In this document: one piece after another, positions 1 through 34,200 of the stretch
Numbering within the stretch: position 1 is the stretch's first letter
Layout: every line of letters begins with the position of its first letter
Assembly: GCF_040869045.1 (NCBI RefSeq)
Contig: NC_090319.1
Coordinates: 231,935,832-231,999,831, forward strand
DNA: 64,000 nt
Origin: Eurosta solidaginis
Lineage: Eukaryota > Arthropoda > Insecta > Diptera > Tephritidae
Reading direction: 5' to 3'
Notes under the pieces: model-generated
The model's input: only the letters and a program-made list of their open reading frames with translations
What the model was told of the DNA's origin: nothing
Databases searched by the model: none
Translations under genes and position numbers: made by a program

Positions 1-735
1 CAATATATTTCAGAAAAGAACACGCAATAACTTTAAAGGTAGATTTCCAACCACAGTGCAGCTTTGTGGCGAACAGCTGTGAATGGAGATAGTCCAGTGG
101 TTCCGAACTCTTGAAGGCGTTTGGCTTCAATGGGAATTATGCAGTGGTATGTCAACGTCCCTTTCACTGTTACTGCCTTCTTAAATGTAGCTTCAAGGTT
201 CTTTCCTTCTTTGTAGTATTCCTCGTTTTCCACATATTTAAAAGAAATATAAGGGGTTTTCGCTTTTGCTGTGTCCGGTCGCTTTTCTCGATGTCAAAGT
301 TCATATTCTTATTTTAAATCTTATAATTGCCGTGATACCAAATGTTTTGTTAAGTATAGTTCATTACATAATTCTGTGTATTGTGGTGAAGTAAAATCCT
401 GCCTTTGGGAAGTTATTTTGCTAATTTAGTGCTTTTAAATTTATAAATTTTTTGTGTTTTGCATTTGTATTCCACAAGAATACACATACATACGTTCATA
501 TATCTACATTCATTTGCTGCATTCATTTTTGTGTATTTTCTTGTCTTCTTTATTTTTTGTTCGAGGAACAGCTGTTTCAGTGCGTTCTAGCAGTCATTGT
601 GCTATTGCTGTCTTAAAGCTGATAATCTAGTGCCTCTAAATTGCTTATATTTTTCTTTGATATTTCAGTGGCTCTCAAACTGCTTACTTTTGTTTTTAGC
701 CCTTTTCAAAAGTAACCATATTCAAGTTTATATTT
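1..735. repeat. Copy 1 of the tandem composite unit, left part (unclassified flank, then LINE-B 5' end)
   Basis: This stretch is almost base-for-base the same as 21268-22009 and 29742-30478, so it is the first visible copy of a tandem unit that starts left of the window. The last ~60 bases, from about 675 (TCAAACTGCT), are taken as the 5' end of LINE-B because LINE-A starts with the same string at about 2584. A minus-strand reading frame at 33-233 is open in all three copies. It differs by several amino-acid changes in copy 3, so I see no sign that it is a conserved gene. Confidence 0.7.
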
Positions 736-879
736 TTATACTCAGTTGAGCAGAGCTCACAGAGTATATTAAGTTTGATTGGATAACGGTTGGTTGCACA
801 TATATAAAGGAATCGAGATAGATATAGACTTCCATATATCAAAATAATCAGGATCGAAAAAAAATTTGATTGAGCCATG

Positions 880-1990
880 TCCGTCCGTCCGTCCGTCCGT
901 TAACACGATAGCTTGAGTAAATTTTGAGGTATCTTGATGAAATTTGGTATGTAGGTTCCTGAGCACTCATCTCAGATCGCTATTTAAAATGAACGATATC
1001 GGTCTATAACCACGCCCACTTTTTCGATATCGAAAATTTCGAAAAACCGAAAAAGTACGACAATTCATTACCAAAGACAGATAAAGCGACAAAACTTGGT
1101 AGATGAGTTGAATTTATGACGCAGAATAGAAAACTGGTAAAATTTTGGACAATGGGCGTGGCACCGCCCACTTTTAAAAGAAGGTAATTTAGAAGTTTTG
1201 CAAGCTGTAATTTGTCAGTCGTTGAAGATATCATGATGAAATTTGACAGGGACGTTACTCCTATTACTATATGTACGCCTAATAAAAGTTAGCAAAATCT
1301 GAGAAGGACCACGACCACTTTAAAAAAAAAATTTTTAAAGTAAAATTTTAACAAAAAATTTAATATCTTCACAGTATATAAGTAAATTATGTCAACATTC
1401 AACTCCAGTAATGATATGGTGCAACAAAATACAAAAATAAAAGAAAATTTCAAATGGGCGTGGCTCCGCCCTTTTTCATTTAATTTGTCTAGGATACTTT
1501 TAACGCCATAAGTCGAACAAAAATTAACCAATCCTTTTGAAATTTGGTAGGGGCATAGATTTTATGATGTTAACTGTTTTCTGTGAAAACGGGCGAAATC
1601 GGTTGATGCCACGCCCAGTTTTTATACACAGTCGTTCGTCTGTCCTTCCGCATGGCCGTTAACACGATAACTTGAGCAAAAATCGACATATCTTTAATGA
1701 ACTTAGTTCACGTACTTACTTGAACTCACTTTATCTTGGTATGAAAAATGAACGAAATCCGACAATGACCACCCCCACTTTTTCGATATCGAAAATTACG
1801 AAAAATTAAAAAAATGCCATAATTCTATACCAAATACGAAAAAAGGGATGAAACATGGTGAGGTAATTGGATTGTTTTATTGACGCGAAATATAACTTTA
1901 GAAAAAACTTTATAAAATGGTTGTGACACCTACCATATTAAGTAGAAGAAAATGAAAAAGTTCTGCAGGGCGAAATAAAAAACCCTTAAA
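880..1990. repeat. Ancient internal duplication in the 5' half of the Helitron/DINE-like element
   Basis: Block 1 (about 890-1110) and block 2 (about 1655-1870) share the same order of motifs: GTTAACACGATA, a TTGAGYAAA stretch, AAAATGAACGA, CCAC(G/C)CCCAC, TTTTTCGATATCGAAAAT, then an A-rich run. They are clearly diverged. The element therefore carries two old copies of a ~220-base module, separated by about 550 bases with GGGCGTGG...CCGCCC palindromes at about 1156 and 1455. Confidence 0.55.
883..902. repeat. GTCC microsatellite in the Helitron/DINE-like element
   Basis: Four to five GTCC/CCGT units in a row follow GAGCCAT near the element's 5' end. A degenerate counterpart sits at about 1630-1660 (CGTCTGTCC) in the second internal block and again at about 52200 in the other copy, so it is an inherited part of the element. 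Confidence 0.8.
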
Positions 1991-2048
1991 ATCGTGGCAG
2001 GTATTACATATATAAATAAATTAGCCGTATCCAACAGATGATATATTT

Positions 2049-2583
2049 TTGGTCGATATCTGGAAAACGCCTTCACATATACAACTACCACCACTCCCTT
2101 TTAAAACTCTCATTAATACCTTTAATTTGATATCCATATCGTACAAACACATTCTAGAGTCACCCCTGGTCCACCTTTATGGCGATATCTCGAAAAGGCG
2201 AACACCTATAGAACGAAGGCCCACTCCCTTTTAAAAATACTCATTAACACTTTTCATTTGATACCCATATCGTACAAACAAAGTCTAGAGTCACCCCTGG
2301 TCCACCTTTATGGCGATATCTCGAAAAGGCGAACACCTATAGAACGAAGGCCCACTCCCTTTTAAAAAATACTCATTAACACCTTTCACTTGATACCCAT
2401 ATCGTACAAACAAAGTCTAGAGTCACCCCTGGTCCACCTTTATGGCGATATCTCGAAAATGCGAACACCTATAGAACTAAGGCCCCCTCCCTTTTAAAAT
2501 ACTCATTAACACCTTTCGTTTGATACCCATATTGCACAAATGAATTCTAGAGTCACCCCTGGTCCACCTTTATGGCGGTATCT
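2049..2583. repeat. 130-bp satellite array, left part (about 4 units)
   Basis: The landmark CCTTTATGGCGATATCTCG recurs at 2174, 2305, 2437 and 2567, a period of 130-132 bases. Each unit also carries ACTCCCTTTTAAAA, CATTAACACC, GATACCCATAT and TCTAGAGTCACCCCTGG. The fifth unit is cut off by LINE-A and the array resumes at 6509, so both parts were one array before the LINE inserted. Confidence 0.9.
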
Positions 2584-2673
2584 TCAAACTGCTCAAACAG
2601 TGATTTTCTTACTGTGATCTCCAAACTATTTTCACTGCCTCCGTCTGTTTAATCAATTTTACTTTAACTTATA

Positions 2674-3558
2674 ATGTCTTGCAATTTTGTTAACTGCCAA
2701 TTGAAAGGTGATACCGAGCGTTTCGTGTCGTGCTGGCTTTGTGATGAGCTTGCTCATATGAAGTGCGCTGGTTTGACAGCAAGGGTGTGTGATGCGATCA
2801 ACGATGACAAGGGTGTGCGTTGGTCGTGCTTGAAATGCAGATCCACGGAAGTGGATCTTTTTAAGCTTTTCAAACATACCCGAAACGCATTCTCCGAAAT
2901 CGGTAAGGAACTTTCTACATTAGGGGATAAATTCAATTATTATGAAAACTTGTTTAAAACTTTCAAATGTATTACCGATTCAGCTGCTAATGCTAACAGC
3001 GACAGTCGTGACAGCAAACGAAAACGAACTGATGTCTCGGCTGGCGTATTGACCCTAGACCCCGTTCAAAACATCCAGAACCCAATCGTTCCTACACCTA
3101 GCACGATAGAATTAATAAACTTAGCATCTCCAAGTCCTCTTACAGTAGAGCCTTCAACATCAAAGGCACCTCCTACAAAACTAGCAGCTAGAAAAAATAC
3201 TGAACCTGCAAACCGTTCTCAGGCGACTGAGCCTGGAACTAGGAAGTTGGTTGTAGTCCCTCCTAAAAAATCGATATTCGTGTCAAGATTCGAGAGGGAT
3301 ACTACTGAGGAGGATCTGAAATCGTATATCTTCTCAAAAACGAAAACCCATGACGTAACAATTCGGAAATTTAATTTTAGTTATGAAAGAAACGTATCTT
3401 CCTTTAGATTAGATGTACCTATTGACCATTTTGACACTATCTTGAGTTACGATTTTTGGCCCTCTGGGGCACTTGTGCGGGAATTTGAATATAGGCGGAA
3501 TAAGAGTGTTCCAAACTTAGCAAAGATCCCTGTTAATAACACTGAGTCAAAAAACTGA
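2674..3558 (+). CDS. LINE-A ORF1 protein with PHD-type zinc finger
   Basis: 294 codons, intact. Residues 3-55 form a PHD-like zinc finger with Cys3, Cys8, Cys20, Cys23, His28, Cys31, Cys52 and Cys55 (C-X4-C-X11-C-X2-C-X4-H-X2-C-X20-C-X2-C). The middle is a Ser/Thr/Pro-rich linker with a basic patch (SKRKRT, about residue 113). Residues about 195-280 (SIFVSRFERDTTEEDL to FWPSGALVREF) resemble the RRM-like C-terminal domain found in PHD-containing LINE ORF1 proteins. Expected role: nucleic-acid binding and RNP assembly during retrotransposition. ORF2 overlaps the stop region. This is the only intact ORF1 of its family in the window and the best preserved coding region here. Confidence 0.8.
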   Translation: MSCNFVNCQLKGDTERFVSCWLCDELAHMKCAGLTARVCDAINDDKGVRWSCLKCRSTEVDLFKLFKHTRNAFSEIGKELSTLGDKFNYYENLFKTFKCITDSAANANSDSRDSKRKRTDVSAGVLTLDPVQNIQNPIVPTPSTIELINLASPSPLTVEPSTSKAPPTKLAARKNTEPANRSQATEPGTRKLVVVPPKKSIFVSRFERDTTEEDLKSYIFSKTKTHDVTIRKFNFSYERNVSSFRLDVPIDHFDTILSYDFWPSGALVREFEYRRNKSVPNLAKIPVNNTESKN

Positions 3559-6400
3559 ACGAAAAATCTGCTTTAGATATACTTTACCAAAATGTTAGAG
3601 GCTTAAACACCAAGTTAACAGAACTGTTTTTAAAATCATTTAACTCAAGCTACGATATAATTGCTTTAACCGAAACCTGGCTGAAACCTCATGTTTTTAA
3701 CTCAGAGATCCTCTGTAATGACTACCAGATATATCGAAATGACCGCCTGAATAGGGTTGGAGGTGGGGTTCTGCTTGCTGTACACTCTTCAATACCATCT
3801 GAAGAGATTTGCGTAACCGCCACCGATACAACTGAGTTCTTGTGCATACGCACACAACTAGCAAATATCCACATTTATTTGGCCATCTGTTATATCCCGC
3901 CATCTTCTTAACTGTCCGTTTATATGCATCACATTTCCTTGCTAAGAACTGTTAATTCGATGCTAAAGCCTTCCGATTCCATTATTGTCTTGGGTGACTT
4001 CAATATGCCACACATATCATGGTGCATCTCTGACTTTAATATCGTACCAGTTTCGTCAAAGTCTTCCAACAATGAATTTCTAGACGGAATGTCTGAGCTG
4101 TGCCTTCAACAAATCAACATCCAATCGAATAAATTCGGAAGAGTGTTAGATTTAGCCTTTGTGGATGATGAATCTAAATATTTCATTAGTCGATGCGAAC
4201 CCATTATTGAACCTGAAGATGCTTACCACCCTTCCCTCAAAATAGTTTACGAAGTTGTAAATTATGCTTGTAACAGCGGAAATAAACGATACAACTCCAG
4301 TTATCGCTTCGACTTTGCGAAGGCCAATTTTAAAAAATTAAATCGTGATCTATCTCGAATAGTGTGGCCAATATTTAATGCTGATGTGGAGCAAAGCGTT
4401 TCTCACTTTTACAATACCATTTACTGTCATTTTGAAAAATACGTACCTAAGCGGATTTGTGTACATTCCGATACAAGCCAAGTATGGTTCACTAAAGAGC
4501 TGAAAATTTTAAAGAATAAAAAGTCTCGATCTTTCAAGTTGTTCAAAAAGACGGGTTTACATAACCATTACTTACAGTACTCGATTCTACGCTGCAAGTA
4601 TTTTCAATTGAACAAAAAGTGTTACAAAGCTTATCTTTGTAAAATGAAAAGAAATATAACTTGCAACCCGAAGGCATTTTACGGATTCGTAAACTCTAAA
4701 CGCAGGGTGAAATGGTTTCCATCATCCATGAAATTCCAAGATAATATTTCCAGCGATGATCAAGAGATCGCCGACTTCTTTGCGGAATTTTTCAAATCAA
4801 ATTACTCTATTGAGACCAACGTTTCACCTAATGAATACCCATACCATATTGATTCATGTTATTCAATCAGAGCTCCATTTATATCTTCAGAAGATGTATT
4901 ATCTTATTTAAAAACTTTAAAAGTATCATATTCATACGGCCACGACAGGATCCCGACACACTTTCTTAAAAAATGTGCTGCAAACATCTATCAGCCGCTA
5001 ACAGATTTATTTAATTTATCTTTAATTTATGGCGTTTTCCCAACAATATGGAAGGAATCTTTTCTTATTCCACTTCATAAAAATGGAAGCAGGTCTTCAA
5101 TAGAAAACTACCGGGGCATAGCAAAGTTATCCGCTATCCCAAAGTTATTTGAGGCTATTGTTACCTACCACCTAACATTCTCTATTTCCCCCATAATTGC
5201 AAGCTCGCAGCATGGGTTCTGCAAGGGCAAATCACCTATCACCAATTTACTAGAATTTACCACCCACGTTTCTAATGGATTTAGAAAAGGCCTTCACACT
5301 GATGTAATTTACACCGATTTCAGTAAAGCTTTCGACAAAGTATCACACCCATTACTTATTCATAAGCTCAGTCAACTCGGGTTCAACCCCGTCTTATATG
5401 TTGGATTTCTTCGTATCTTGGTTATCGTACGCAAAAAGTAATCTTTAAAAATACACTTTCTGGGGTCATCAATGTTTCTTCTGGTGTTCCTCAGGGCAGC
5501 CATCTTGGTCCGATTCTGTTCTTGTTGTTCATAAACGATATATCTGGTAAAATTAAATACTCAAAAATCTTGATGTACGCAGACGATGTAAAACTTTTCA
5601 AATCATGTGCCTCGGTTGAGGAACATTCCTTGCTTCAAATGGATTTAAATCACTTGGTTACCTGGTGCAATGTAAATTATATGCCGCTCAATCTCAAAAA
5701 ATGTAAATTCGTGTGTTTTTCTCGGAGAGTTTCGCCACCAGCTTCATATACAATTAACAACTATAGTCTAGAAACTGTAAATAATTTTATTGACTTGGGA
5801 GTCATGATGGATTCCAAACTTAGTTTCAATCTTCATATTAATGCTACAGTGAATAAAGGCAAAGGTGTTTTTGCATTTGTTAAACGGTGGTCAAAAGAAT
5901 TTAACGACCCTTACATAACTAAAGCACTTTTTACAACATTAGTTAGGCCAATATTATAATACGGCTCGATAATTTGGAATCCGCGTTATCAAGTCCATGC
6001 AGACAGTCTCGAATCAATACAAAAACAATTTTTACTATTTGCCTTAAGAAATTTCCAATGGGACTCTTTAACTAATCTTCCACCTTATACTAATCGATTA
6101 TAGCTTATCAATCTTCCAACTCTTGCTAGTCGAAGGGAAATGCTTGGTGTAATATTTATGACAAAACTTTTAAATGGATCAATTTCGAGCCCATTCCTTC
6201 TGAATGAAGTGAACTTTTGCGTTCCCTCTCGGACATCGAGACACTTCAAACCTCTTCTGCTGAAACAATGTAGAACGAATTTCGAACAAAATGAACCTTT
6301 TCGGCGTTTATGCCAAGATTATAACTCTCACTCAAACACATTTGATAGCTCGGACTCCCTTTTTTCTATAAAAAAGATTGTTCTCACCTCTCTAAATTAA
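3558..6400 (+). pseudogene. LINE-A ORF2 endonuclease-reverse transcriptase, broken
   Basis: An apurinic-type endonuclease comes first (YQNVRGLN about 3588, LTETWL about 3666, LGDFNMPHISW about 3990, YHPSL about 4225). A reverse transcriptase follows, with DFSKAFDKVSHPLL about 5314, GVPQGSHLGP about 5484 and catalytic YADD at 5575-5586. The C-terminal region ends at 6400. Defects: in-frame TAA at 3909-3911, a frameshift near 5425-5440 between the FSKAF and GVPQG motifs, stops at about 5957 and 6101. Catalytic motifs themselves are intact. It would nick the target and prime cDNA synthesis from element RNA. As read, it cannot make a full protein. Confidence 0.85.
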
Positions 6401-6508
6401 TGTATAATACGTTTGCTTCTGTTCTCTTTAAGTATTACGCTTGGCTGATGAAATTTCTTCTGTAGCTGAGCAGTCTCAGATCGTGACGCTTGACAATCCG
6501 CTGCCCAT

Positions 6509-8420
6509 CAAAGACTCTCGAAACGGCGTCCACCTATGGAACTAAGGATTACTCCCTTTTAAAATCCTCATTAACACCTTGCTTTTGATACCCATATTGT
6601 ACAAACAAATTCTAGGGTCACCCCTGCTCCACCTTTATGGCGATATCTCGAAACGGCGTCCACCTATGGAACTAAGGATTACTCCCTTTTAAAATACTCA
6701 TTAACACCTTTCTTTTGGTACCCATATTGTACAAACAAATTCTAGGGTCACCCCTGGTCCACCTTTATGGCGATATCTCGAAAATGCGACCACCTATACA
6801 ACAACCACCACTCCCTTTTAAAACCCTAATTAATACCTTTAATTTGATACCCATATCATACAAACACATTCTAGAGTCACCCCTGGTCCACCTTTATGGC
6901 GATATTTCGAAACGGCGTCCACCTATAGAACTAAGGCCCATTCCCTTTTAAAATACTCATTAACACCTTTCGTTTGATGCCCATATTGTACAAAGAAATT
7001 CTAGGGTCACCCCTGGTCCACCTTTATGGCGATTTCTCGAAACGGCGTCCACCTATGGAACTAAGGATTACTCCCTTTTAAAATACTCATTAACACCTTT
7101 CTTTTGATACCCATATTGTACAAACAAATTCTAGGGTCACCCCTGGTCCACCTTTATGGCGATATCTCGAAACGGCGTCCACCTATGGAACTAAGGATTA
7201 CTCCCTTTTAAAATACCCATTAACACCTTTCTTTTGATACCCATATTGTACAAACAAATTCTAGGGTCACCCCTGGTCCACCTTTATGGCGATATCTCGA
7301 AACGGCGTCCACCTATGGAACTAAGGATTACTCTCTTTTAAAATACTCATTAACACCTTTCTTTTGATACCCATATTGTACAAACAAATTCTAGGGTCAC
7401 CCCTGCTCCACCTTTATGGCGATATCTCGAAACGGCGTCCACCTATGGAACTAAGGATTACTCCCTTTTAAAATAATCATTAACACATTTCGTTTGATGC
7501 CCATATTGTACAAAGAAATTCTAGGGTCACCCCTGGTCCACCTTTATGGCGATATCTCGAAACGGCGTCCACCTATGGAACTAAGGATTACTCCCTTTTA
7601 AAATACACATTAACACCTTTCTTTTAATACCCATATTCTACAAACAAATTCTAGGGTCACCCTTGGTCCACCTTTATGGCGATATCTCGAAACGGCGTCC
7701 ACCTATGGAACTAAGGATTACTCCCTTTTAAAATACCCATTAACACCTTTCTTTTGATACCCATATTGTACAAACAAATTCTAGGGTCACCCCTGGTCCA
7801 CCTTTATGGCGATATCTCGAAACGGCGTCCACCTATAGAACTAAGGATTACTCCTTTTTAAAATACTCATTAACACCTTTCTTTTGATACCCATATTGTA
7901 CAAACAAATTATAGGGTCACCCCTGGTCCACCTTTATGGCGATATCTCGAAACGGCGTCCACCTATGGAACTAAGGATTACTCCCTTTTAAAATACTCAT
8001 TAACACCTTTCTTTTGATACCCATATTGTAGAAACAAATTCTAGGGTCACCCCTGGTCCACCTTTATGGCGATATCTCGAAAAGGCGACCACCTATACAA
8101 CAACCACCACTCCCTTTTAAAACCCTCATTAATACATTTAATTTGATACCGATATCGTACAAACACATGCTAGAGTCACCCCTGGTCCACCTTTATGGCG
8201 ATATTTCGAAACGGCGTCCACCTATAGAACTAAGGCCCACTCCCTTTTAAAATACTCATTAACACCATTCGTTTGATACCCATATTGTACAAACAAATTC
8301 TAGAGTCAACCGTGATCCACCTTTATGGCGATATCCCTAAATGGCGTCCACCTATAGAACTAAGGCCCACTCCCTCACAAAATACTCTTTAATGTCTTTC
8401 ATTTGATACACATGTCATAC
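6509..8420. repeat. 130-bp satellite array, right part (about 15 units)
   Basis: CCTTTATGGC recurs at 6632, 6762, 6891, 7021 and then every 130 bases to 8061, followed by 8190 and 8320. Units from 7021 to 8060 are nearly identical. The outer units are more diverged. Two distinctive neighbouring units (ACAACAACCACCACTCCC, then ATATTTCGAAACGG) occur at 6762-7020 and again at 8061-8319, ten units apart, which points to block amplification by unequal exchange. The last units decay into unique sequence before the 3' hairpin. Confidence 0.92.
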
Positions 8421-8504
8421 AAAAACACGGTTTCCCTCGGTTCATTTTCCTACATGGTTATTTTCCCTTATGTTGTCACCATAGCTCTCAACAGAGTATG
8501 TAAT

Positions 8505-8522
8505 GTTCGGTTACACCCGAAC
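8505..8522. other. 3'-terminal hairpin of the Helitron/DINE-like element
   Basis: GTTCGG, loop TTACAC, CCGAAC: a perfect 6-bp stem about 20 bases from the element's right end. The identical hairpin is at 53262-53279 in the second copy although the flanking sequence has diverged. Such a 3' hairpin is a known hallmark of Helitron-type elements. Confidence 0.7.
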
Positions 8523-8576
8523 TTAACCTTCCTTACTTGTTTATATTTTATTTGCTTAAATTTTTGGACGACTATA

Positions 8577-9279
8577 ATGAAAACTTCTTGCGTATTTATA
8601 AATTGTAATGTGAAGAACGACTCTGACCGTTTTGTAGCATGTTGGTTATGTGATAGCCTCGTGCATATGAAATGTGCTGGTTTGACTGGAAGAGTGGCTG
8701 ACGCTTTGAATGAGGGTAAAGGGGTTCTCTGGTCCTCTCGAAAGTGTCGATCTACTGAGGTGGATCTTTTCAGGCTCTTTAAAACAGCAAGAAACGGTTT
8801 TCTTGAAATCGGTAAGGAGCTTAAGTTCATCAACCAAAAATTTCAGACTTACGAAGCGGCATTAAATGTTTAGAGACATAACCAGCAAGAAAGGGGAAGC
8901 AAACTACTAAAAACTACTTGTGGATGATGCCCTGGGCTCGAATTCAGCCTCTTCTGCTTCTAGTGTACCTATTCCTGTTTCTTCCTCGAACTTAATATCT
9001 GCTGCTTTACCTATTCCTGTCTCTACCTCTAGCTTTGGCAACGAATTGTCCATCTTCATTTCGCCAGGCACTCAACAAGAACCTACAAGGTCTAAATCAG
9101 ATGTTAATCAGGGGTATTCCCCACTACCTACACCCTCTACGATGGCGTTATCGATGACGCCGTCGACCTCATTTGCTCCTATTTCGTCCACAACTTTTGG
9201 AAATCAGCTGTAACGACCCAGCGTTTCAGAAGATATGACAACTTTGATGGCTCAATCAACTCATAATTTACCAAACGCT
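8577..9279 (+). pseudogene. LINE-B ORF1 (copy 1), 5' part, interrupted by RTE
   Basis: Starts at ATG 8577. The N-terminus matches LINE-A ORF1 (FVACWLCDSLVHMKCAGLTGRV), but the penultimate zinc ligand is lost: LWSSRKC here versus RWSCLKC in LINE-A. An in-frame stop comes at 8871. Ser/Pro-rich sequence (ASSVPIPVSSSN and similar) continues in another frame to 9213. At 9280-9292 (TAATAATGCGGAA) the RTE element begins. The C-terminal half is absent in this copy because the tandem unit ends inside the RTE. Copies at 22047 and 30521 share the Ser replacement, so the zinc finger was damaged before duplication. Confidence 0.8.
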
Positions 9280-9292
9280 AATAATGCGGAAG

Positions 9293-11626
9293 GGCAGGAG
9301 GGTGGAGCCGTGTGTAGAAGACAACGAAAGTGGGGAAAGCTTCTGACCGCCATTCACTTGGGAATGGCCAGAGTGATTCTTTTGTATGCGGTTCAATTAG
9401 CTCACTAATGCCGGTCGCTTGCGGTCTAGTATCCTTTGGGTAGCCGCTAAACATCCGTTTAGCGGTGAGCTAATGTGAGAAGGCGACAACCTGGCTTGGC
9501 CACTCTGATATAATCGGTTTAAGGGCTAGCCGGGGGAGATCTCATCGGCAGCGTCTGTACACCTCTAGGTGCGGCTGCAAGCGGGCGTCTGTCTTGGAGC
9601 AAGCGGCTCGCTATATAAACGTGCCAAGTAATATTTTCACCCCCGCTGAGCGGGTTGTGCGCTGGGCTTGGGACCCGCCACGTAAAATCATACTCCAATG
9701 AAATATAACAACAAGCCTCGGATAAATACACTCTCTATTGATGACGCCATGGCAAACCTTTGAAGGACAATGAATTGAGTACATGCACCTGGAACGTCCG
9801 CTCCCTGAATGGGATTGGTGCAGATTCCCGGCTGGTTGATTTCCTCGTCAAAGCAAAATCTGACATCACCGCCATCCAAGAAATGCGTTGGACGAAGCAA
9901 GGAAGAAAGAAGATCAAAAATTGTGACATCTACTGGAGTCGCCAAGTTCTGGCGTTCACACCTGTGGATGAACGTCTCACCGCTATCCGAATAAAAGCAA
10001 ACTTTTTTAATATATCACTCATCTGCGCCCATGCGCCGACAGAGGAGAAAGAGGATGAGGTGAAAGACACTTTTTATGAACAATTAGAACGCACATACGA
10101 GCGCTGCCCTCGTCACGATATAAAAGTCGTGGTTGGTGACTTTAACGCCAGGGTGGGCAAAGAATGTGTTTTTGGCCCTACAGTCGGAAAGTTCAGCCTA
10201 CACAATGAAACTTCTCCTAACGGACTGAGGCTGATTGACTTTGCCGGTGCTCGAAACATGGTCATATCCAACACGAGGTTCATGCATAAAAGGATACATC
10301 AAGCTACATGGCTGTCTCCTGATCGAAATACTCGCAATCAAATCGATCACGTTGTGATAGACGGATGGAATGCCTCCAGTGTTTTAGATGTGCGCACGAT
10401 CCGAGGACCTAACATCGATTCGGACCATTATCTCGTTGCAGCCAAAATACGCACCCGCCTCAACGCGGCTATAACCAAGGAACAAAAAACACTAGGAAAA
10501 CTAGACCTCGAAAAGCTTCAACCACAACGGACTGCCAATGATTTCGCAACTCGACTCTCACACGTGCTCTCTGAGAGCACAGCTCATCCTGAAGGAATAC
10601 AGGAGCAGTGGGAGCATATTTCCAAATCACTTCGTACTGCCGCCGAGGAAAAAATTGGTTACCGGCGACCACGAAAAAACAACTGGTACGATGAAGAATG
10701 CCGCGTTGCAACTGAAAGAAAAGACGCTGCCTACAGGGCTACGTTAAAAGCGAGGGCGACAAGAGGAGTGTGTGAACGCCACCGTGAGTTGAAAAAGGAA
10801 GCGAGACGCCTTTTCAGGAAGAAAAAAGCAGAAGCAGAAAGGCGTGAGTGCGAGGAGCTTGAGCTGCTAGCCACCAGGAATAACGCCCGAAAATTTTACC
10901 AAAAAATACGGCAACAAACGGAAGGTTTTAAGACCCGGGCAAACTCCTGTAGGAACGAAAACGGCGACCTTTTAACTGATGCCCAGAGAGCGCTTAGATT
11001 ATGGAGGGAACACTTCTCTGTTCTCCTAAATGGAGGCAGCAATTCACCGCGCAGAGATGAAGAACTCAATCCCGCAATCGATGATGATGGAATATATGTC
11101 CCCCGCCCGATTATGACGAAGTTAGAATAGCAATAACCAGATTGAAAAACAACAAGGCCGTGGGCGCTGATGTATTGCCTGCGGAGCTATTCAAGTACGG
11201 CGGCGAAGAGTTGATAAGGCGCATGCAGCAGCTTCTTAGCAAAATATGGACGGAAGAGTGCATGCCCGACGGTTGGAATCTAAGTGGTCTTTGCCCAGTC
11301 CACAAGAAGGTTGATACTGCAAAATGTACCAACTATCGTGGTGCCGAGGTACCGCGAACCGGCTGATGGGACCGTATCAGTGCGGCTTCAGACCTGGGAA
11401 ATCTACCATCGACCAGATTTTCACAATGCGCAAAATCTTGGAAAAAACCTGTGAAAAAGGAATCGACACACGTCACCTCTTCGTCGACTTTAAAGCCGCC
11501 TTCGACAGCACGAAAAGGAGCTGCCTATATGCCGCTATGTCTGAATTTGGTTTCCCCGCAAAACGTATACGGCTGTGCAAAATGACGTTGAGCAACACCA
11601 TCAGGTCAGTCAGAATTGGAAAGGAC
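9293..11626 (+). mobile_element. RTE-like LINE, copy 1 (3'-truncated by the tandem-unit junction)
   Basis: Begins directly after the 13-bp target TAATAATGCGGAA (9280-9292) with about 400 bases of GC-richer leader. The coding part runs from 9698. Sequence matches copies 2 and 3 to about 11626, then switches to BEL sequence at the point corresponding to about 33555 in copy 3. The 3' third (rest of RT, TAAG tail) is missing. Strand and order match the endonuclease-RT layout of RTE-group LINEs. Confidence 0.85.
9698..11626 (+). pseudogene. RTE-like endonuclease-reverse transcriptase, copy 1
   Basis: Endonuclease motifs: TWNVRSLNGIG about 9787, IQEMRW about 9874, VVVGDFNARVG about 10129, DSDHYLV about 10419. 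A long basic linker (RLFRKKKAEAERREC) and the first RT blocks follow, with GFRPGKSTIDQIF about 11383 and LFVDFKAAFDS about 11478. Defects: a 1-base loss near 9744 after the likely start, a 57-base in-frame deletion after TGGAGT at about 9937 (shared with copy 2), a 1-base loss in the C-run at about 11100 that gives a stop at 11130, and a deletion between NYRG and GPYQCGF (about 11345) found in all three copies that removes an RT segment. Confidence 0.82.
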
Positions 11627-11792
11627 CACTGATTATTCCTTTTTGGTATTTCTTCCAACTCCCAGAATTTACGAAGCTGACTATGTAAATTATTATCTTC
11701 TCCTATCGACACTTTGGTAGCAAAGCAAGAGACGTCTGCAGTGTCCGATGCCCCAGTGACAATCCACCCGAACACGATCTCTTGAGATAAAA

Positions 11793-12524: not shown

Positions 12525-12539
12525 GACAACGTTTCACGC

Positions 12540-22680: not shown

Positions 22681-22693
22681 TAATAATGCGGAA

Positions 22694-25044
22694 GGGCAGG
22701 AGGGTGGAGCCGTGTGTAGAAGTCAACGAAAGTGGGGAAAGCTTCTGACCGCCATTCACCTGGGAATGGCCAGAGCGATTCTTTTGTATGCGGTTCAAGC
22801 AGCTCACTAATGCCGGTCGCTTGCGGTCAAGTATCCTTTGGGTAGCCGCTAAACATCCGTTTAGCGGTGAGCTAATGTGAGAAGGCGACAACCTGGCTAG
22901 GCCACTCTGATACAATCGGTTTAAGGGCTAGCCGGGGGAGATCTCATCGGCACCGTCTGTACACCTCTAGGTGCGGCTGCAAGCGGGCGTCTGTCTTGGA
23001 GCAAGCGGCTCGCTATATAAACGTGCCAAGTAATATTTTCACCCCCGCTGAGCGGGCTGTGCGCTGGGCTTGGGACCCGCCACGTAAAATCATACTCCAA
23101 TGAAATATAACAACAAGCCTCGGATAAATACACTCTCTATTGATGACGACCATGGCAAACCTTTGAAGGACAATGAATTGAGTACATGCACCTGGAACGT
23201 CCGCTCCCTGAATGGGATTGGTGCAGATTCCCGGCTGGTTGATTTCCTCGTCAAAGAAAAATCTGACATCACTGCCATCCAAGAAATGCGTTGGACGAAG
23301 CAAAGAAGAAAGAAGATCAAAAATTGTGAGATCTATTGGAGTCGCCAAGTTCTGGCGTTCACACCTGTGGATAAACGTCTCACCGCTATCCGAATAAAAG
23401 CAAACTTTTTTAATACATCATTCATCTGCGCCCATGCGCCGACAGAGGAGAAAGACGATGAGGTGAAAGACACTTTTTATGAACAATTAGAACGCACATA
23501 CGAGCGCTGCCCTCGTCACGATATAAAAGTCGTGGTTGGTGACTTTAACGCCAGGGTGGGCAAAGAATGTGTTTTTGGCCCTACAGTCGGAAAGTTCAGC
23601 CTACACAATGAAACTTCTCCTAACGGACTGAGGCTGATTGACTTTGCCGGTGCTCGAAACATGGTCATATCCAACACGAGGTTCATGCATAAAAGGATAC
23701 ATCAAGCTACATGGCTGCCCCCTGATCGAAATAGTCGCAATCAGATCGATCACGTTGTGATAGACGGACGGCATGCCTCCAGTGTTTTAGATGTGCGCAC
23801 GATCCGAGGACCTAACATCGATTCGGACCATTATCTCGTTGCAGCCAAAATACGCACCCGCCTCAACGCGGCTAAAACCAACGCGGATATAACCAAGGAA
23901 CAAAAAACACAAGGAAAGCTGACCTCGAAAAGCTTCAGCCACAACAGACTGCCAATGATTTCGCAACTCGACTCTCACACCTGCTCTCTGAGAGCACAAC
24001 TCATCCTGAAGGAATACAGGAGCAGTGGGAGCATATTTCCAAAGCACTTCGTACTGCCGCCGAGAAAAAAATTGGTTACCGGCGACCACGAAAAAACAAC
24101 TGGTACGATGAAGAATGCCGCGTTGCAACTGAAAGAAAAGACGCTGCCTACAGGGCTACGTTAAAAGCCAGGGCGACAAGAGGAGTGTATGAACGCTATC
24201 GTGAGTTGAAAAAGGAAGCGAGACGCCTTTTCAGGAAGAAAAAAGCAGAAGCACAAAGGCGTGAGTGCGAGGAGCTTGAGCTGCTAGCCACCAGGAATAA
24301 CGCCCGAAAATTTTACCAAAAAATACGGCAACAAACGGAAGGTTTTAAGACCCGGGCAAACTCCTGTAGGAACGAAAACGGCGACCTTGTAACTGATGCC
24401 CAGAGAGCGCTTAGATTATGGAGGGAACACTTCTCTGTTCTCCTAAATGGAGGCAGCAATTCACCGCGCAGAGATGAAGAACCCGATCCCGCAATGGATG
24501 ATGATGGAATATATGTCCCCCCGCCCGATTATGACGAAGTTAGAATAGCAATAACCAGATTGAAAAACAACAAGGCCGTGGGCGCTGATGGATTGCCTGC
24601 GGAGCTATTCAAGTACGGCGGCGAAGAGTTTATAAGGCGCATGCAGCAGCTTCTTTGCAAAATATGGGCGGAAGAGTGAATGCCCGACGGTGGGAATCTA
24701 AGTGGTCTTTGCCCAGTCCACAAGAAGGTTGATACTGCAAAATCCACCAACTATCGTGGTGCCGTGGTACCGCGAACCGGCTGATGGGACCTTATCAGTG
24801 CGGCTTCAGACCTGGTAAATCTACCATCGACCAGATTTTCACAATGCGCCAAATCTTGGAAAAAACCTATGAAAAAGGAATCGACACACGTCACCTCTTC
24901 GTCGACTTTAAAGCCGCCTTCGACAGCACGAAAAGGAGCTGCCTATATGCCGCTATGTCTGAATTTGGTTTCCCCGCAAAACGTATACGGCTGTGCAAAA
25001 TGACGTTGGGCAACACCATCAGGTCAGTCAGAATTGGAAAGGAC
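22694..25044 (+). mobile_element. RTE-like LINE, copy 2 (3'-truncated by the tandem-unit junction)
   Basis: Starts after TAATAATGCGGAA (22681-22693), the same target site as copies 1 and 3. It ends at about 25044 in the same RT codon as copy 1 and joins BEL sequence. Identical insertion site and identical end show that copies 1 and 2 descend from one event and not from separate insertions. Confidence 0.85.
23100..25044 (+). pseudogene. RTE-like endonuclease-reverse transcriptase, copy 2
   Basis: ATG 23100 (MKYNNKPRINTLSIDDDHGK) opens the endonuclease domain, in frame to about 23910: TWNVRSLNGIG, QEMRW, VVVGDFNARVG, DSDHYLV. A one-base loss near 23920 (also in copy 3) shifts the linker. The right frame resumes downstream (from about 24185) through the basic linker to a stop at 24677-24679 (GAGTGA for GAGTGC). 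The RT blocks GFRPGKSTIDQIF and LFVDFKAAFDS follow from 24784. It shares the 57-base endonuclease deletion with copy 1 and the NYRG-GPYQ deletion with both other copies. Confidence 0.82.
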
Positions 25045-25049
25045 AACTG

Positions 25050-26879
25050 ATTATACCTTTTTGGTATTTCTTCTAACTCCCAGAATTTACGAAGCTGACT
25101 ATGTAAATTATTATCTTCTCCTATCGACACTTTGGTAGCAAAGCAAGAGACGTGTGTAGTGTCCGATGCCCCAGTGACGATCCACCCGAACACGATCTCT
25201 TGAGATAAAAGATTTTTATGAAGACAACGTTTCACGCCATATAACATAACTTTAGGGTATAAATCTCCTCCAGTTAAAACATCTATAGGACCACTTTGTA
25301 AAAATTTCGAATCCGCTAAAGTTACTTTAGGGAGCTAGTCGAGAATGGTTTCATCGATAGACGTCGATGTCAAGTTACCTGTAATTTGTGGTAGTACGAA
25401 TGCCGTGACTTCTATGAAAAGGTTTGGGTCACGGGGTGAGCCCAAAATAAAGGAGAAACTTTTCGAAGAATTATTGCAGACCTTTTGGCTTAACCCTGAA
25501 ATAACCACGTTGATTTTCGAAACTGGTAGCTTAAGAAGGCCCCGTAGTCGCTCCGACGCTTCTACAGCAGAATCAATTAATGCACGCGCGACGTATGTTG
25601 AACCCAAATAACAAATGTGAACCAAGGCGGTTCCGAGAAGGGCAGAGGATAAAGCTGACGATTTCAGATTATTTTTATCTAATGATAAATTTTTTTTCGA
25701 AGTGGACTGTATATTTATGTGGAGTGCTTGTGAAGAAGTTCCAGCTGTAGCTTCTTTAGTCGTTTGTGGTTTGGAAGACACTCTATTAAGTAGAGTGTGG
25801 TGCCTACTCTTGCACGTAGTGTAGGAATATTGACTTATACAGTCCTTTATTGAATGGCCTTTCGTGAGGCAATTTAGACAGCAGTTGTGATTTTTTATTG
25901 CTGCGAACCTATCGTTAACGGAAAGGGCGAGAAATTCGATGCATAACCGTAGGGGATGGTGTTGTTTCGGACATAACACGCAGTTTGAATTTGAAACTTT
26001 TGTAGCAAGAGCTACTTTCTTTTGGCCCGCGTTGTTGGTCGAATGTGCCGATGATTTTTGAAGGGTGTTAGGCGACGATGATGAAGGTGCACCTTTCACA
26101 TCCAGTGTAGACTGCAGGGTCCTATACCGTTGTCTCAAAAATGTATCCATTTGTCTCCAGTTCGGCAGAGCTGCTTTGTCCGCTGAGGATTGTTCACATA
26201 AACCGGGCGTTGTCTCCCGTAGGCGATTCGAACACAGATAAATTAGAATTAGGTCCCAATCCTTGACCTTGACGTTATACATTTCCAGGGGGAATAAGCA
26301 TCCTTAAATGCCTCGCTGGAGCTGCTTTAACGATGTTGCACTCTCAGTCCGAATGACTGTAAGCGAAAAAAGCGCCTTTAAATGACTGTTGACCAACACC
26401 CGTTTATTTTCGTATGCCGCTTTCAAGTTAGACCACGACATTTCGAAGCCTAAATTGGTTATCGGGGCTTTCGCGACGATTTCCTTTGCTTCACCACTTG
26501 TTTTCTGAAGCAGGTGGTAAAGATTTTCGACGTCCTCCAGTCGCGAATTTTTAATGTAAATCGCTGTGAATAGATCGCGAAAGGATGGCCAAGACACGTA
26601 ATCACCATGGAATATTTCCGCATCACATGGCGGTAAACGCAAACTATTTGAGGATGTGGCTACTTGGGCACGGACAGTGGCTGGAGCAACGCTTGCTTCG
26701 GCTTGTTGGATGTATTCAGTAATACGTGACAAGCAGGATATATAATCCCTAAGACATGTTGACTGCTTTGCTTTGACCGCTTCTACTTCGTCCTCATTAT
26801 TCAAGGATTTTAAGCATTTTTCATATGCTAACTTTGTGTTCGACCAAGCGCCGATTAATTCTGCTTTTACAATTTCCAA
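25050..26879 (-). pseudogene. BEL/Pao Gag-protease, copy 2
   Basis: Gag starts at 26879 and is open through the stop site of copy 1 (APATVRAQVATSS). It then stops at about 26302 (QRGI-stop; copy 1 reads QRDIYG). It resumes to 25335 with the nucleocapsid boxes CVLCPKQHHPLRLC and CLNCLTKGHSIKDC (intact CX2CX4HX4C) and the protease ALIDSAVEAS, where 12 bases are missing relative to copy 1. After the shared stop at 25334 the linker (GVKRCLHKNLLSQEIVFGWIVTG) reads to the junction. Together the two copies show that different lesions arose after duplication. Confidence 0.85.
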
Positions 26880-27218
26880 GGAGGTTTTCGAATTTTCCTT
26901 TAAATAGGCTTCATTGAAATCCTCGTTGAATTCAACAATCTGAGCACCTAGTAAAGTAACTTAAGGCCATATTTACTCTCAAATGTACAACGTTTTATAT
27001 GCCGAAAAGAAAGGTTTCGAAAAATGGCCAATAATGGAGTGCTCTAAAGTGTTAGTACAGTCAAAGGGAATGATAAGCGCCCCCAACTGGATCTAGAGAT
27101 CAAACTATTTCGCGTATTTTGCGAATTTAATTAAATGCTAATGTTTGAAGAATTTCCTACAGTGTCAAGGTAAAAATTTCGTACTGGGCTGTATGTTCCT
27201 ACAAATGTACCTTGTACG

Positions 27219-27870
27219 ATATGTACTAGGCCGGGTCGATTTGGGGGAAGGCAAAAAAATCGCCCATTGCTCTGTGAAAATCATATTCTAGGGATCAAAA
27301 TAAGGAACTTTGCCGAAGGAACCATACCCCTAAAACGAATTCTGATGTCCCCCCGCCTTTGGGTCGTAGTGGCAAATTTTGAAAAATCCCACTTTGAAAT
27401 GCCTATGTTTTTTCTTTTTGGAGTTTATTTTTCCCTTTAGAAATTTATTTAGTCAGAACATATGTAAATGAAAAATGAATTTAACTTAGTAATAGAAAAG
27501 AAATTAAAAACAATTATTAGAAATTAGCGTTTCTACAACCCCCTTTTAAAACCATGTTGCATTTGCATGTCGTAAACATAGTTGTGTGGGTTTTTTATTC
27601 AACCGTTTTAAAAAATGAGGGTATCACTGTGACACAATTGCAGATCGTAAAATTGCTTGTGTTGTTTTTTTTAAGCCACCACAAGACACAGCAGGTAGAA
27701 TTGAAATTGCCCCTACCCAAAAGTTCGACCCAAAGGGGGGGGGGGGGGGGAGGGACATCAGAATTCGTTTTAGAGATATGGTTCCTTCGGCAAAGTTTCT
27801 TTTTTGATCCCTAGAATACGATTTTCACAGAGCAATGAGCGATTTTAAATCGACCCGCCCTAATATGTAC
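27219..27870. mobile_element. hAT-type MITE with 8-bp target duplication
   Basis: ATATGTAC lies at 27219-27226 and 27863-27870. Copy 1 has it once (about 14531) without the insert. The 636-bp insert starts TAGG and ends CCTA and has very long imperfect inverted repeats of about 120 bases (CATTGCTCTGTGAAAATC, CTTTGCCGAAGGAACCATA, CGAATTCTGATGTCCC in both arms). A run of about 17 G lies at 27735-27751. The 8-bp duplication and TA(G)GG-type ends suit a hAT-derived MITE. No coding sequence. Confidence 0.8.
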
Positions 27871-29435
27871 GGTATATCAAAATAGGAAAAAGGTAAAGTC
27901 AACAAATGAGTGATCACAATTGAACTCTCGTGTAATGAGAACAATAAGAAAAAGGTGGGCGAAACAAAGAATTATACGTATGTATGTACCGAATTTACCA
28001 ATGTTTGGTTTTTTATATTGGATACGGCGAAAAGGGGGAAGAACACGACTTGATGCGATCGCATGTCGGTCAAATCGCAAAAGAGTTAATCACTTTTTAC
28101 CTAAGTAATTAACCGGCTGGTATCAAATATTTGAAACTAAGAGGGGAAAAGCGCGAAATATTAAATATTCTCTCCGTTCGAGAGATTGGATTTGGAGTGC
28201 TATATGTAAATTTGTATGAAAGTTTATATATATGTATGTATGTGTGTATGTATATACAACACTATCCAACCTCACTACGAAATTCTTAAAACGAGCAGAC
28301 AGCTTGGATTTTAGGCTAAATAATCCGCCACGAAAATCAAAATAGGTACTTTACTAAAAAAATTAAGTCAAATTAATTTAACGCAACTTCAATAAGGATT
28401 TTATATGAAAATTAAAAAACTTTCCAAATAAACCGACGGATTAGAATTTGTTAGCACAAACTTACACGACCATATATATCTCTTTATTATACGATTTTTA
28501 ATTTTTGTGCACTTCTTGAAAGAAAACCGAACTCACTTAAACAATTCACTTTAAATCAAATTTAATTGAAATTTAAATATAATCTATAATTATTTTTTAT
28601 TTTTTCCCCTTTTTTCAAAACTTCGACACTTTTGCTTTTCATTAGTTTTTTGTTTAATTTTGTTTTGGTTTCCTTTCTTACACTTGACACTTGTTTGCAC
28701 TTAAACAGATTTAATTTATGTAATTAACGCATAAAAGAACGACTTTTGTTTGTTTTATTTTATTTCAATAATCACTGCACTATATATGCACTCAACAATC
28801 TATTTTTTAACTTACACGCACCTGATTTTCAAAATTTTTTTTTTCTGATGTTGTTGTTTTTGTCCAATTTCTTTTTCCTTCTTTCCTTTGTTGTCTCTCC
28901 CGATTTGCATTTGCTTTTTACTATAAGATTGTATTTGTTGAATTGAGCCGATTGGTACTGTTGCTGTGCGCTCGTCGGCTCGAAGACCAAATGTTTATCT
29001 ACACAAACAAAATAGTATGCCAGTTCGAACTCACAGCAATTCGACGGAACGGAAAAAAGGAAAAGAAAAAACACGGTAATTAATGTTTTAATCATATATA
29101 GGGGTAAATATGTCAAAGAAAATAGCCGCATATACACAGATATATGCGGATTTAGGAATTAGAAAAGGTAAAATTATAATGGATTAAATATACCGAAAAA
29201 TAAGGATTTTACCTTAGCTTGAAAATGTTGCTTTGGAACGCTGTCTCAACTGCTGTCATAAGTAGAAGACTTAAGGCTCTTCAGTTGAGCGCAGCGTTCG
29301 TCAACTCTAATAGCGTTTTCTTTTCTGGCAAAAGTGTTACGCTTTTTGTACGCCGCGCAAGGGTTGTAAATATACTTTGTTCTTTTCTAAAAAGCAGGTA
29401 ACGCCTTCACGGGGTATTTCGTCCGTTTGTGAAAA

Positions 29436-30424
29436 TTGTTCCCTACTTGCAACGCAAAAGCGTTACACTTTTAACCTGCATAAAATGGCGGTATGGCAGT
29501 GCAACTCTGCTAAACTAGCTGATCAAGACTATTTATTTTGGTAACTTTGCATATGTTTAGGCGAAGAAAATTGAAATGAAGGAAATAATTGCTAATGAAT
29601 TTTTATTATCATTGACAGCGTGTTTGTGAAAATCAGCTAATACACGGGGTAGCCATTTATGTTCTTTCCATGCACTATAAATGGTCAAAATTTACTGGGG
29701 TAGGAGTAACTCTATTAAGGCTTTACCATTTACTCAGGCAGCAATATATTTCAGAAAAGAACACGCTATAACTTTAAAGGTAGATTTCCAACCACAGTGC
29801 AGCTTTGTGGCGAACAGCTGTGAATAGAGATAGTCCAGTGGTTCCGAACTCTTTAAGGCGTTTGGCTTCAATAGGAATTATGCAGTTGTATGTCAACGTC
29901 CCTTTCAGTGTTACTGCCTTCTTAAATGTAGCTTCAAGGTTCTTTCCTTCTTTGTAGTATTCCTCGTTTTCCACATATTTAAAAGAAATATAAGGGGTTT
30001 TCGCTTTTGCTGTGTCCGGTCGCTTTTCTCGATGTCAAAGTTCATATTCTTATTTTAAATCTTATAATTGCCGTGATACCAAATGTTTTGTTAAGTATAG
30101 TTCATTACATAATTCTGTGTATTGTGGTGAAGTAAAATCCTGCCTTTGGGAAGTTATTTTGCTAATTTAGTGCTTTTAAATTTATAAATTTTTTGTGTTT
30201 TGCATTTGTATTCCACAAGAATACACATACATACGTTCATATATCTACATTCATTTTCTGCATTAATTTTTGCGTATTTTCTTGTCTTCTTTATTTTTTG
30301 TTCGAGGAACAGCTGTGTGCGTGCATTCAGTGCATTCTAGCCGTCATTGTGCTATTGCTGTCTTAAAGCTGATAATCTAGTGCCTCTAAATTGCTTATAT
30401 TTTTCTTTGATATATCAGTGGCTC
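29436..30424. repeat. Unclassified flank of tandem unit, copy 3
   Basis: Follows the BEL region directly, without the Penelope composite seen in copy 1, so it shows the pre-insertion arrangement. No gene. Matches 20964-21954. LINE-B is taken to start near 30425 at TCAAACTGCT. Confidence 0.55.
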
Positions 30425-30520
30425 TCAAACTGCTTACTTTTGTTTTTAACCCTTTTCAAAAGTAACCATATTCAAGTTTATATATACATTTTATTTGCTA
30501 AAATTTTTAGGACGACTATA

Positions 30521-31235
30521 ATGACAACTTCTTGTGTATTTATAAATTGTAATGTGAAGAACGACTCTGAGCGTTTTGTAGCATTTTGGTTATGTGATAG
30601 CCTCGGGCACATGAAATGTGCTGGTTTGACTGGAAGAGTGGCTGATGCTTTGAATGAGGGTAAAGGGGTTCTCTGGTCCTCTCGAAAGTGTCGATCTACT
30701 GAGGTGGATCTTTTCAGGCTCTTTAAAACAGCAAGAAACGGTTTTCTTGAAATCGTAAGGATCTTCAGTTCATCAATCAAAAATTTCAGACTTACGAAGC
30801 TGCATTTAAATCATTTAAATGTTTAGAGACATAACCGGCAAGAAAGGGGAAGCAAACTACTAAAAAGCGGAAGTTTGTGGATGATGCCCTGGGCTCGAAT
30901 TCAACCTCTTCTGCTTCTAGTGTACCTTTTCCTGTTTCTTCCTCGAACTCAATATCTGCTGCTTTACCTATTCCTGTCTCTACCTCTAGCCTTGGCAACG
31001 AATTGACCATCTTCATTTCGCCAGGCACTCAACAAGAAACTACAAGGTCTAAATCAGATGTTAATCAGGGGTATCCCCCACTACCTACACCCTCTACGAT
31101 GGCGTTATCGATGACGCCGTCGACCTCATTTGCTCCTATTTCGTCCATAACTTTTGGAAATCAGCTGTAACGACCCAGCGTTTCAGAAGATATGACAACT
31201 TTGATGGCTCCATCAACTCATAATTTACCAAGCGC
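30521..31235 (+). pseudogene. LINE-B ORF1 (copy 3), first half
   Basis: ATG 30521. The PHD finger has lost two ligands: FWLC for CWLC as well as the shared LWSSRKC. A one-base loss near 30755 (EIVRIF for EIGKEL) shifts frame. The Ser/Pro-rich linker continues in another frame (877-codon region 30877-31170). The RTE element interrupts at 31236-31248, and the second half is at 34555-34870. Confidence 0.8.
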
Positions 31236-34200
31236 TAATAATGCGGAAGGGCAGGAGGGTGGAGCCGTATGTAGAAGTCCACGAAAGGGGGGAAAGCTTC
31301 TGACCGCAATTCACCTGGGAATGGCCAGAGCGATTCTTTTGTAGGCGGTTCAAGCAGCTCACTACTGCCGGTCGCTTGCGGTCAAGTATCCTTTGGGTAG
31401 CCGCTAAACGGGGTGAGCTAATGCGAGAAGGCGACAACCTGGCTAGGCCACTCTGACATAATCGGTTTAAGGGCTATCGGCAGCGTCTCTAGGTGCGGCT
31501 GCAAGCGGGCGTCTGTCTTGGAGCAAGCGGCTCGCTATATAAACGTGCCAAGTAATATTTTCACCCCCACTGAGCTGGGCTTGGGACCCGCCACGTAAAA
31601 TCATACTCCAATGAAATATAACAACAAGCCTCGGATAAATACACTCTCTTTTGATGACGACCATGGCAAACCTTTGAAGGACAATGAATTGAGTACATGC
31701 ACCTGGAACGTCCGCTCCCTGAATGGGATTGGTGCAGATACCCGGCTGGTTTATTTCCTCGTCAAAGCTAAATCTGACATCACCGCCATCCAAGAAATGC
31801 GTTGGACGAAGCAAGGAAGAAAGAAGATCAAAAATTGTGAGATATATTGGAGTGGCCGTACGAATAAGCGAAGTTTCGGCGTCGGATTCGTGGTGGGAGA
31901 GAGACTTTGTCGCCAAGTTCTGGCGTTCACACCTGTGGATGAACGTCTCGCCGCTTTCCGAATAAAAGCAAATTTTTTAATATATCATTCATCTGCGCCC
32001 ATGCGCCGACAGAGCAGAAAGACGATGAGGTGAAAGACACTTTTTATGACCAATTAGAACGCACATACGAGCGCTGCCCCCGTCACGATATAAAAGTCGT
32101 GGTTGGTGACTTTAACGCCAGGGTGGGCAAAGAATGTGTTTTTGGCCCTACAGTCGGAAAGTTCAGCCTACACAATGAAACTTCTCCTAACGGACTGAGG
32201 CTGATTGACTTTGCCGGTGCTCGAAACATGGTCATATCCAACACGAGGTTCATGCATAAAAGGATACATCAAACTACATGGTTGTCTTCTGATCGAAATA
32301 CTCGCAATCACATCGATCACGTTGTGATAGACGGACGGCATGCCTCCAGTGTTTTAGATGTGCGCACGATCCGAGGACCTAACATCGATTCGGACCATTA
32401 TCTCGTTGCAGCCAAAATACGCACCCGCCTCAACGCGGCTAAAACCAACGCGGATATAACCAAGGAACAAAAAACACAAGGAAAGCTGACCTCGAAAAGC
32501 TTCAGCCACAACAGACTGCCAATGATTTCGCAACTCGACTCTCACACCTGATCTCTGAGAGCACAACTCATCCTGAAGGAATACAGGAGCAGTGGGAGCA
32601 TATTTCCAAAGCACTTCGTACTGCCGCCGAGGAAAAAATTGGTTACCGGCGATCACAAAAAAACAACTGGTACGATGAAGAATGCCGCGTTGCAACTGAA
32701 AGAAAAGACGCTGCCTACAGGGCTACGTTAAAAGCGAGCGCGAAAAGAGGAGTGTGTGAATGCTATCGTGAGTTTAGCGTGAGATCGAGGAGCTTGAGCT
32801 GCTAGCCACAAGGAATAACGCCCGAAAATTTTACCAAAAAATACGGCAACAAACGGAAGGTTTTAAGAACCGGGAACACTCCTGTAGGAACGAAAACGGC
32901 GACCTTGTAACTGATGTCCAGAGAGCGCTTAGATTATGGAGGGAACACTTCTCTGTTCTCCTAAATGGAGGCAGCAATTCACCGCACAGAGATGAAGAAC
33001 CCGATCCCGCAATCGATGATGATGGAATATATGTCCCCCCGCCCGATTATGACGAAGTCAGAATAGCAATAACCAGATTGAAAAACCAAAAGGCCGTGGG
33101 CGCTGATGGATTGCCTTCGGAGCTCTTCAAGTACGGCGGCGAAGAGTTGATAAGGCGCATGCAGCAGATTCTTAGCAAAATATGGGCGGAAGAGTGCATG
33201 CCCGATGGTTGGAAACTAGGTTTTCTTTGCCCAGTCCACAAAAAGGTGGATACTGCAAAATGCACCAACTATCGTGGTGCCGTGGTACCGCGAACCGGCT
33301 GATTGGCCGCGGTTTCAGACCTGGTAAATCTACCATCGACCAGATTTTCACAATGCGCCAAATCTTGGAAAAAACCCGTGAAAAAGGAATCGACACACGT
33401 CACCTCTTCGTCGACTTTAAAGCCGCCTTTGACAGCACGAAAAGGCGAAAAGGAGCTGCCTATATGCCGCTATGTCTGAATTTGGTTTCCCCGCAAAACT
33501 TATACGGCTGTGCAAAATGACGTTGAGCAACACCATCAGCTCAGTCAGAATTGGGAGGAACCTCTCCGAGCCGTTCGAAACTAAACGAGGTTTCAGACAG
33601 GGTGACCTTCTATCGTGCGATTTTTTTAATTTGATGCTGGAAAAAATTATACTATCTGCAGAACTTAACTGCACTGGAACAATATATTATAAAAGCGTGC
33701 AATTACTGGCATATGCGTAGACATTGATATCATCGGCCTAAACACCCGCGCTGTTAGTTCTACTTACTCCAAACTGGAAAAAGAAGCGGTAAAGATGGGT
33801 TTGATGGCGAATGAGGACAAAACGAAGTACCTGCTGTCATCGAGCAAAGAGTCAGCGCATATGCGCCTTGGCAACCACGCTACTGTTGGCAGCCATAATT
33901 TCGAAATAGTAAAATACTTCGTTTATTTGGGAACCAGCATCAACACTAGCAACAACATCAGCACTGAAATCGAGCGAAGAATCAATCTTGCCAATAAATG
34001 CTACTTTGGACTAGGTAGGCAATTGAAAAGTAAAGTCCTCTCTCGGCGAACGAAAATCATACTCTACAAGTCACTTATCGTACCTGTCCTGCTATATGGG
34101 GCAGAAGCATGGACCATGACAACAGCATATGAAGCGGCTTTGGGGTGTTCGAGAGAAAAGTTCTTCGAAAGATTTATGGACCTCTACGCGTTGGCGATGG

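Follow-up and report, generated by a model that had tools for sequence, protein, structure and literature searches.

Tandem copies of whole nests of transposable elements (TEs) are known from Drosophila melanogaster, where Bergman et al. 2006 (PMC1794594) placed them in regions of high TE density and gave as an example an invader1->DM88 nest that is arrayed in tandem in the Hsp70B region. Here we describe an array from the tephritid fly Eurosta solidaginis, found in a window of 64,000 nucleotides (C1:231,935,832-231,999,831; contig NC_090319.1 of assembly GCF_040869045.1, 1.908 Gb in 569 contigs), in which remains of a BEL element, of a long interspersed element (LINE) designated LINE-B, and of an RTE element lying inside LINE-B recur together three times. 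With a probability of about 0.87, the array arose by in-place tandem duplication of a nest of dead retroelements, in that one illegitimate join was followed by amplification to three copies and then by independent decay.

The tandem array and its joins

Comparison of the window with itself revealed three colinear copies of a multi-element block, head to tail and in direct orientation, mostly at 96-98% identity; since the aligned blocks extend over 1.5-3 kb at 96-97% (gaps not counted), chance similarity is not an issue. Read from left to right, the unit holds the start of BEL pol and the BEL gag region on the minus strand, BEL-side DNA, a short further stretch, the 5' part of LINE-B and the 5' part of the RTE. 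LINE-B/RTE homology is unbroken in units 1-3, with the RTE at the same LINE-B site, so the order, orientation and shared insertion site put forward in an earlier sequence-only reading of the window are borne out. Measured from join to join without insertions, unit 2 comprises 7,869 bp and unit 3 7,881 bp (join bases being counted to within a few bases either way), in agreement with the spacing of about 7.9 kb given in that reading. Its right end at 33,560 misses the true edge, 33,554, by only a few bases, and its copy limits at ~16.1, 20.96 and 29.44 kb proved to be out of phase, the true unit ends being the joins of RTE to BEL at 11,619/11,628 and 25,037/25,046. The positions at 16.1 and 20.96 kb delimit a Penelope-like insertion (16,111-20,951) within unit 2, and that at 29.44 kb falls on the matching empty site of unit 3 (29.43-29.44 kb).

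The array spans ~C1:231,924,039-231,969,385 and consists, in this assembly, of three units between two native edges, which sets it apart from a satellite array with its many tandem units. Units 2 and 3 alone lie wholly inside the window; unit 1 extends leftward into neighboring DNA, where its left part was located. What is observed, then, is a set of colinear units with two identical joins, two native edges, copy-specific insertions and mostly private substitutions. Units 1 and 2 stop at the same base in the RTE reverse transcriptase (RT) and continue into BEL; each join consists of eight bases between native RTE and native BEL, seven of which are common to both joins. Read strictly, the native edges have no base in common at the join, no microhomology was seen, and the eight bases may derive from parent sequence that has decayed. 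The join sits in coding DNA of both RTE and BEL, outside any long terminal repeat (LTR).

With 188 proteins aligned to the window, RTE alignments reached at most to bins 11,620-11,629 and 25,040-25,049 at the joins, and to bin 34,490-34,499 for unit 3. Of seven RTE proteins printed in full, four gave one alignment across 33,554, two gave alignments on both sides of it, and one ended short of it. The whole RTE is flanked by a 13-bp direct repeat, with one copy in unit 3 (31,236-31,248) and the other outside the array (34,542-34,554), directly after the TAAG repeat that ends at 34,541; it is the target-site duplication that the RTE made on entering LINE-B. A search of an earlier, narrower zone had given no match of at least 9 bp, the 13 bp emerging from the wider zone. 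On the left side, native BEL pol (7,019-8,109 of the neighboring stretch L031) runs through the left breakpoint at ~8,040. This native BEL shows 87% identity to its relative on contig C2 over 965 bp, and its last 68 bp show 94% identity to the BEL beside each join. Just inside this edge, ~8.5 kb of other DNA stands in place of the ~0.78 kb of BEL kept in units 2 and 3. Because both edges of the array are native, the array most probably grew in place.

The starting state would have been a nest of dead retroelements in which BEL on the minus strand was followed by LINE-B containing the RTE. One illegitimate joining, linking a site within the RTE reverse-transcriptase region with one close to where BEL pol begins, would have duplicated the intervening 7.9 kb head to tail at the original locus, and a third copy would have followed soon after, via unequal exchange between copies or in the same replication-based event. 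The copies would then have decayed independently and taken up their own transposon insertions. From the appearance of the join we infer end joining with a short filler, or template switching, as the kind of joining, and one of the two routes just named, in the same conditional sense, for the third copy.

Divergence of the units and competing explanations

In the LINE-B/RTE part, substitution divergence amounts to 2.5% between units 1 and 2, 4.0% between 1 and 3, and 3.8% between 2 and 3. The corresponding values just left of LINE-B (732 shared columns) are 2.0%, 1.8% and 3.1%, and those for BEL gag and flank are 2.5-3.6%, 3.4-4.2% and 3.0-3.8%. Polarization of the BEL/flank changes was based on BEL relatives on C2 as outgroups, in three stretches totaling 2,394 columns, excluding 6 sites with neither state in the outgroups, 2 three-way sites, and sites at which the outgroups were absent or disagreed. 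By this count 94 changes are private to one unit (28, 25 and 41 for units 1, 2 and 3), and 16 are common to a pair (7 for 1+2, 5 for 1+3, 4 for 2+3). For the RTE amino-acid changes, polarity was taken from the majority state among 29 close homologues (of 120 in all), with gapped codons and two three-way codons set aside; this gave 11, 8 and 18 private to units 1, 2 and 3, with 4 common to 1+2, 0 to 1+3 and 3 to 2+3. As most polarized changes are private to one unit, the sequences point to three copies whose separation dates to about the same time, or that were homogenized until then; unit 3 changed somewhat more than units 1 and 2 (combined p 0.014). A simple two-step model, in which the middle unit would be clearly mosaic, is unsupported, most polarized changes being private, although the patterns vary along the unit.

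Three observations weigh against the duplication scheme outlined above. Three BEL alignments overrun join 2, by ~7 to 86 bases as judged from 10-base bins. The unpolarized site patterns of LINE-B/RTE are uneven, with 71 sites grouping 1+2 vs 3, 28 grouping 1+3 vs 2 and 43 grouping 2+3 vs 1 (p 4e-5), as would be the case if units 1 and 2 were the closer pair; according to the polarized counts, they mostly reflect extra private change in unit 3. Left of LINE-B the patterns differ (10 for 1+2, 12 for 1+3, 3 for 2+3; p 0.006, one-breakpoint permutation p 0.03), so that exchange between copies is possible.

Allelic difference could, in principle, account for the substitution divergence of ~2-4% (5.7-6.3% in one BEL/flank stretch, 301 columns long), and the assembly might have unrolled two alleles, or a two-copy array, into three units. 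However, the units carry different large insertions, N is absent from the window and from 19.8 kb of DNA to its left, and the polarized divergence is star-like, with no two units near identical; moreover, at least a duplication is already proved by the RTE-BEL join combined with the two native edges. An artefact of this kind is considered improbable, although an error in copy number may be present, and the refutation on such grounds that the sequence-only reading had envisaged is unlikely. Much the same low likelihood attaches to a rolling-circle origin, on an extrachromosomal circle or elsewhere, with subsequent insertion: a circular template would explain why the joins are identical and why the three units diverged almost simultaneously, but RTE/LINE-B and BEL simply continue at the two edges, so that an inserted product would need to have returned, by homology, to precisely the place from which it came.

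The BEL-side DNA is repeated in the genome and RTE relatives are numerous in Eurosta, which would favor separate insertions of the same elements; yet nesting site, truncation points and join are the same in the copies, and homology passes through the element borders. The common LINE-B/RTE nesting and the internal joins at the same base exclude independent insertions, an origin to which we assign practically no probability. A flank query of 1.5 kb gave at least 70 matches in the genome (40 of 1,952 candidates scored); among those scored, three extended over the full query length (100, 96 and 95%), each of them in this array, and the best matches outside it were partial, at 83-89%. A mobile composite, in which the nest transposes as one unit, would be predicted to recur at other loci; among the 40 candidates scored, the flank piece had no further full-length match. 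The duplication of a pre-existing nest, rather than repeated insertion, had been the central proposal of the sequence-only reading, and with the native continuations at both edges it is upheld.

Components, coordinates and later insertions

The coordinates of the array, its components and its insertions are compiled in Table 1. The gag region of BEL is identified by DUF1759; between units 2 and 3 its ratio of nonsynonymous to synonymous differences (pN/pS) is 0.76 over 38 differences, giving no clear sign of constraint by selection. The stretches of the unit 3 flank at 27.86-29.30 and 29.78-29.87 kb recur next to BEL gag on C2 and are probably, by their sequence, BEL LTR/leader; no match to 29.30-29.78 and 29.87-30.53 kb was found in the C2 stretches compared. 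The designation of the duplication as transposon-only is therefore borne out in part. On C2 itself (L033 and L034, C2:92838500-92851500), two BEL gag/LTR-side blocks of 95% identity stand in direct orientation at ~8.8 kb spacing, possibly BEL elements with a common LTR. The LINE-B 5' part can be traced from its first match to open reading frame 1 (ORF1), at 8,586 in unit 1 and 22,056 in unit 2, and the ORF1 start shows 58-67% protein identity to ORF1 of another element, LINE-A, in the three units; a LINE-A match also lies inside the rest of LINE-B (34,900-35,083). Endonuclease and RT of the RTE match tephritid and other fly proteins. No host gene was recognized in the unit, and Rfam (gathering threshold) and ARAGORN gave no match in the window.

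Table 1. Positions (in the window) of the array, its components and later insertions
Feature	Position	Strand	Remarks
Unit 1, right-hand part, up to RTE side of join 1	1..11619	+	Self-comparison and neighboring DNA; BEL/flank part at L032 6725-9931
Join 1 (RTE to BEL)	11620..11627	+	Eight bases between last native-RTE and first native-BEL match
Unit 2	11628..25037	+	Carries two insertions absent from unit 3
Join 2 (RTE to BEL)	25038..25045	+	Same place as join 1
Unit 3	25046..33554	+	One private insertion
BEL fragment, unit 2	11628..14268	-	pol start and gag region (DUF1759), split by 11,805-12,512
BEL fragment, unit 3	25046..26960	-	pol start and gag, broken frame
Flank, unit 3	27863..29871	-	Much of the stretch recurs beside BEL gag on C2
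LINE-B 5' part, unit 3	30530..31248	+	First ORF1 match to RTE insertion point
RTE inside LINE-B	31249..34541	+	Whole only across right array edge; 13-bp direct repeats, TAAG-repeat 3' end
Native RTE continuation past array edge	33555..34541	+	RTE alignments run across 33,554 here but end at the joins in the other two units
Rest of LINE-B, with further insertion between parts	34555..42234	+	ORF1 C-terminal part 34,567-34,869; ORF2 39,922-42,197 or beyond
130-bp-repeat element split by LINE-A, private to unit 1	736..8540	+	LINE-A ORFs 2,668-5,959
Unit 2 insertion lacking in unit 3	11805..12512	-	Fragment taken to be Penelope-like; 12-bp target-site duplication
Penelope-like element, private to unit 2	16111..20951	+	RT and GIY-YIG domains; ends inverted over 0.96 kb (98%); units 1 and 3 have the empty site
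636-bp miniature inverted-repeat transposable element, private to unit 3	27227..27862	+	Inverted ends, 8-bp target-site duplication; empty site in units 1 and 2

Each of the three insertions listed as private is absent from both other units and is, for this reason, younger than the array; it is because of such later insertions that the copies look unequal. The insertion at 11,805-12,512 is presumably Penelope-like, a class that we assign from a motif in its translated frame, and the BEL stretch corresponding to its site is missing from unit 1. In the Penelope-like element of unit 2, the stretches 16186-17146 and 19993-20952 represent its GIY-YIG end and an inverted partial copy thereof (98%). 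The ~8.5 kb of other DNA within the unit 1 BEL (L031 8110 to L032 6724) hold a tandem repeat of ~0.85-0.92 kb, broken by a further Penelope-like element whose inverted ends measure 1.66 kb (98.9%). The 130-bp tandem repeat occurs in two copies of a larger repeat element (2091-2583, 6516-8413, 52531-53182), in one of which LINE-A lies between two arrays. A minus-strand frame with a Psq-type helix-turn-helix (38095-38592) is perhaps a DNA transposon inserted in LINE-B. Elsewhere in the window are the remains of a hAT-type transposase (59106-60891; DUF4371 and hAT dimerization domains) and an inverted repeat of ~0.6 kb at 71% identity (50094-50694 and 63206-63824).

If promoters are assumed from the element types, the joins would make forward LINE-B/RTE promoters face, head-on, the LTR promoter of the following unit's BEL, with RTE-sense/BEL-antisense and BEL-sense/RTE-antisense transcripts as the predicted outcome. 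That the locus might thereby serve as a local source of small RNA against both families is a decidedly speculative suggestion, and we would not expect it to hold.

Relation to known tandem arrays of transposable elements

The array offers a clean case of TE-rich DNA growing by the copying of nests, not by new insertions, with both breakpoints and the native edges resolved in a fly assembly of 1.9 Gb. In counts of transposition events, the extra BEL, LINE and RTE fragments found here must not be scored as insertions. Literature searches returned no work dealing at once with tandem arrays, unequal crossing over, tephritids and TEs and, by title, no paper on the Eurosta genome; other works returned were, to judge by their titles, reviews or unrelated. 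Satellite DNA derived from transposons, the subject of a review (PMC12628747), is alike in that TE DNA is amplified head to tail and unlike in that Eurosta has only three units. The kilobase-scale tandem repeat on the melanogaster X (O'Hare et al. 2002), cited in PMC1794594 among duplicated clustered or nested TEs, is of a size class to which the Eurosta array likewise belongs. With the Drosophila nests, as that paper's account of them goes, the present array shares the tandem copies of a multi-family TE nest and the extra TE insertions in some copies. On the other hand, it occurs in another fly family, is built from other elements, contains no recognized host gene in its unit, and has both breakpoints and both native edges resolved. 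Compared with what PMC1794594 reports on duplicated nests, the Eurosta array is thus of the same kind as the known Drosophila nest arrays, and the instance itself is new.

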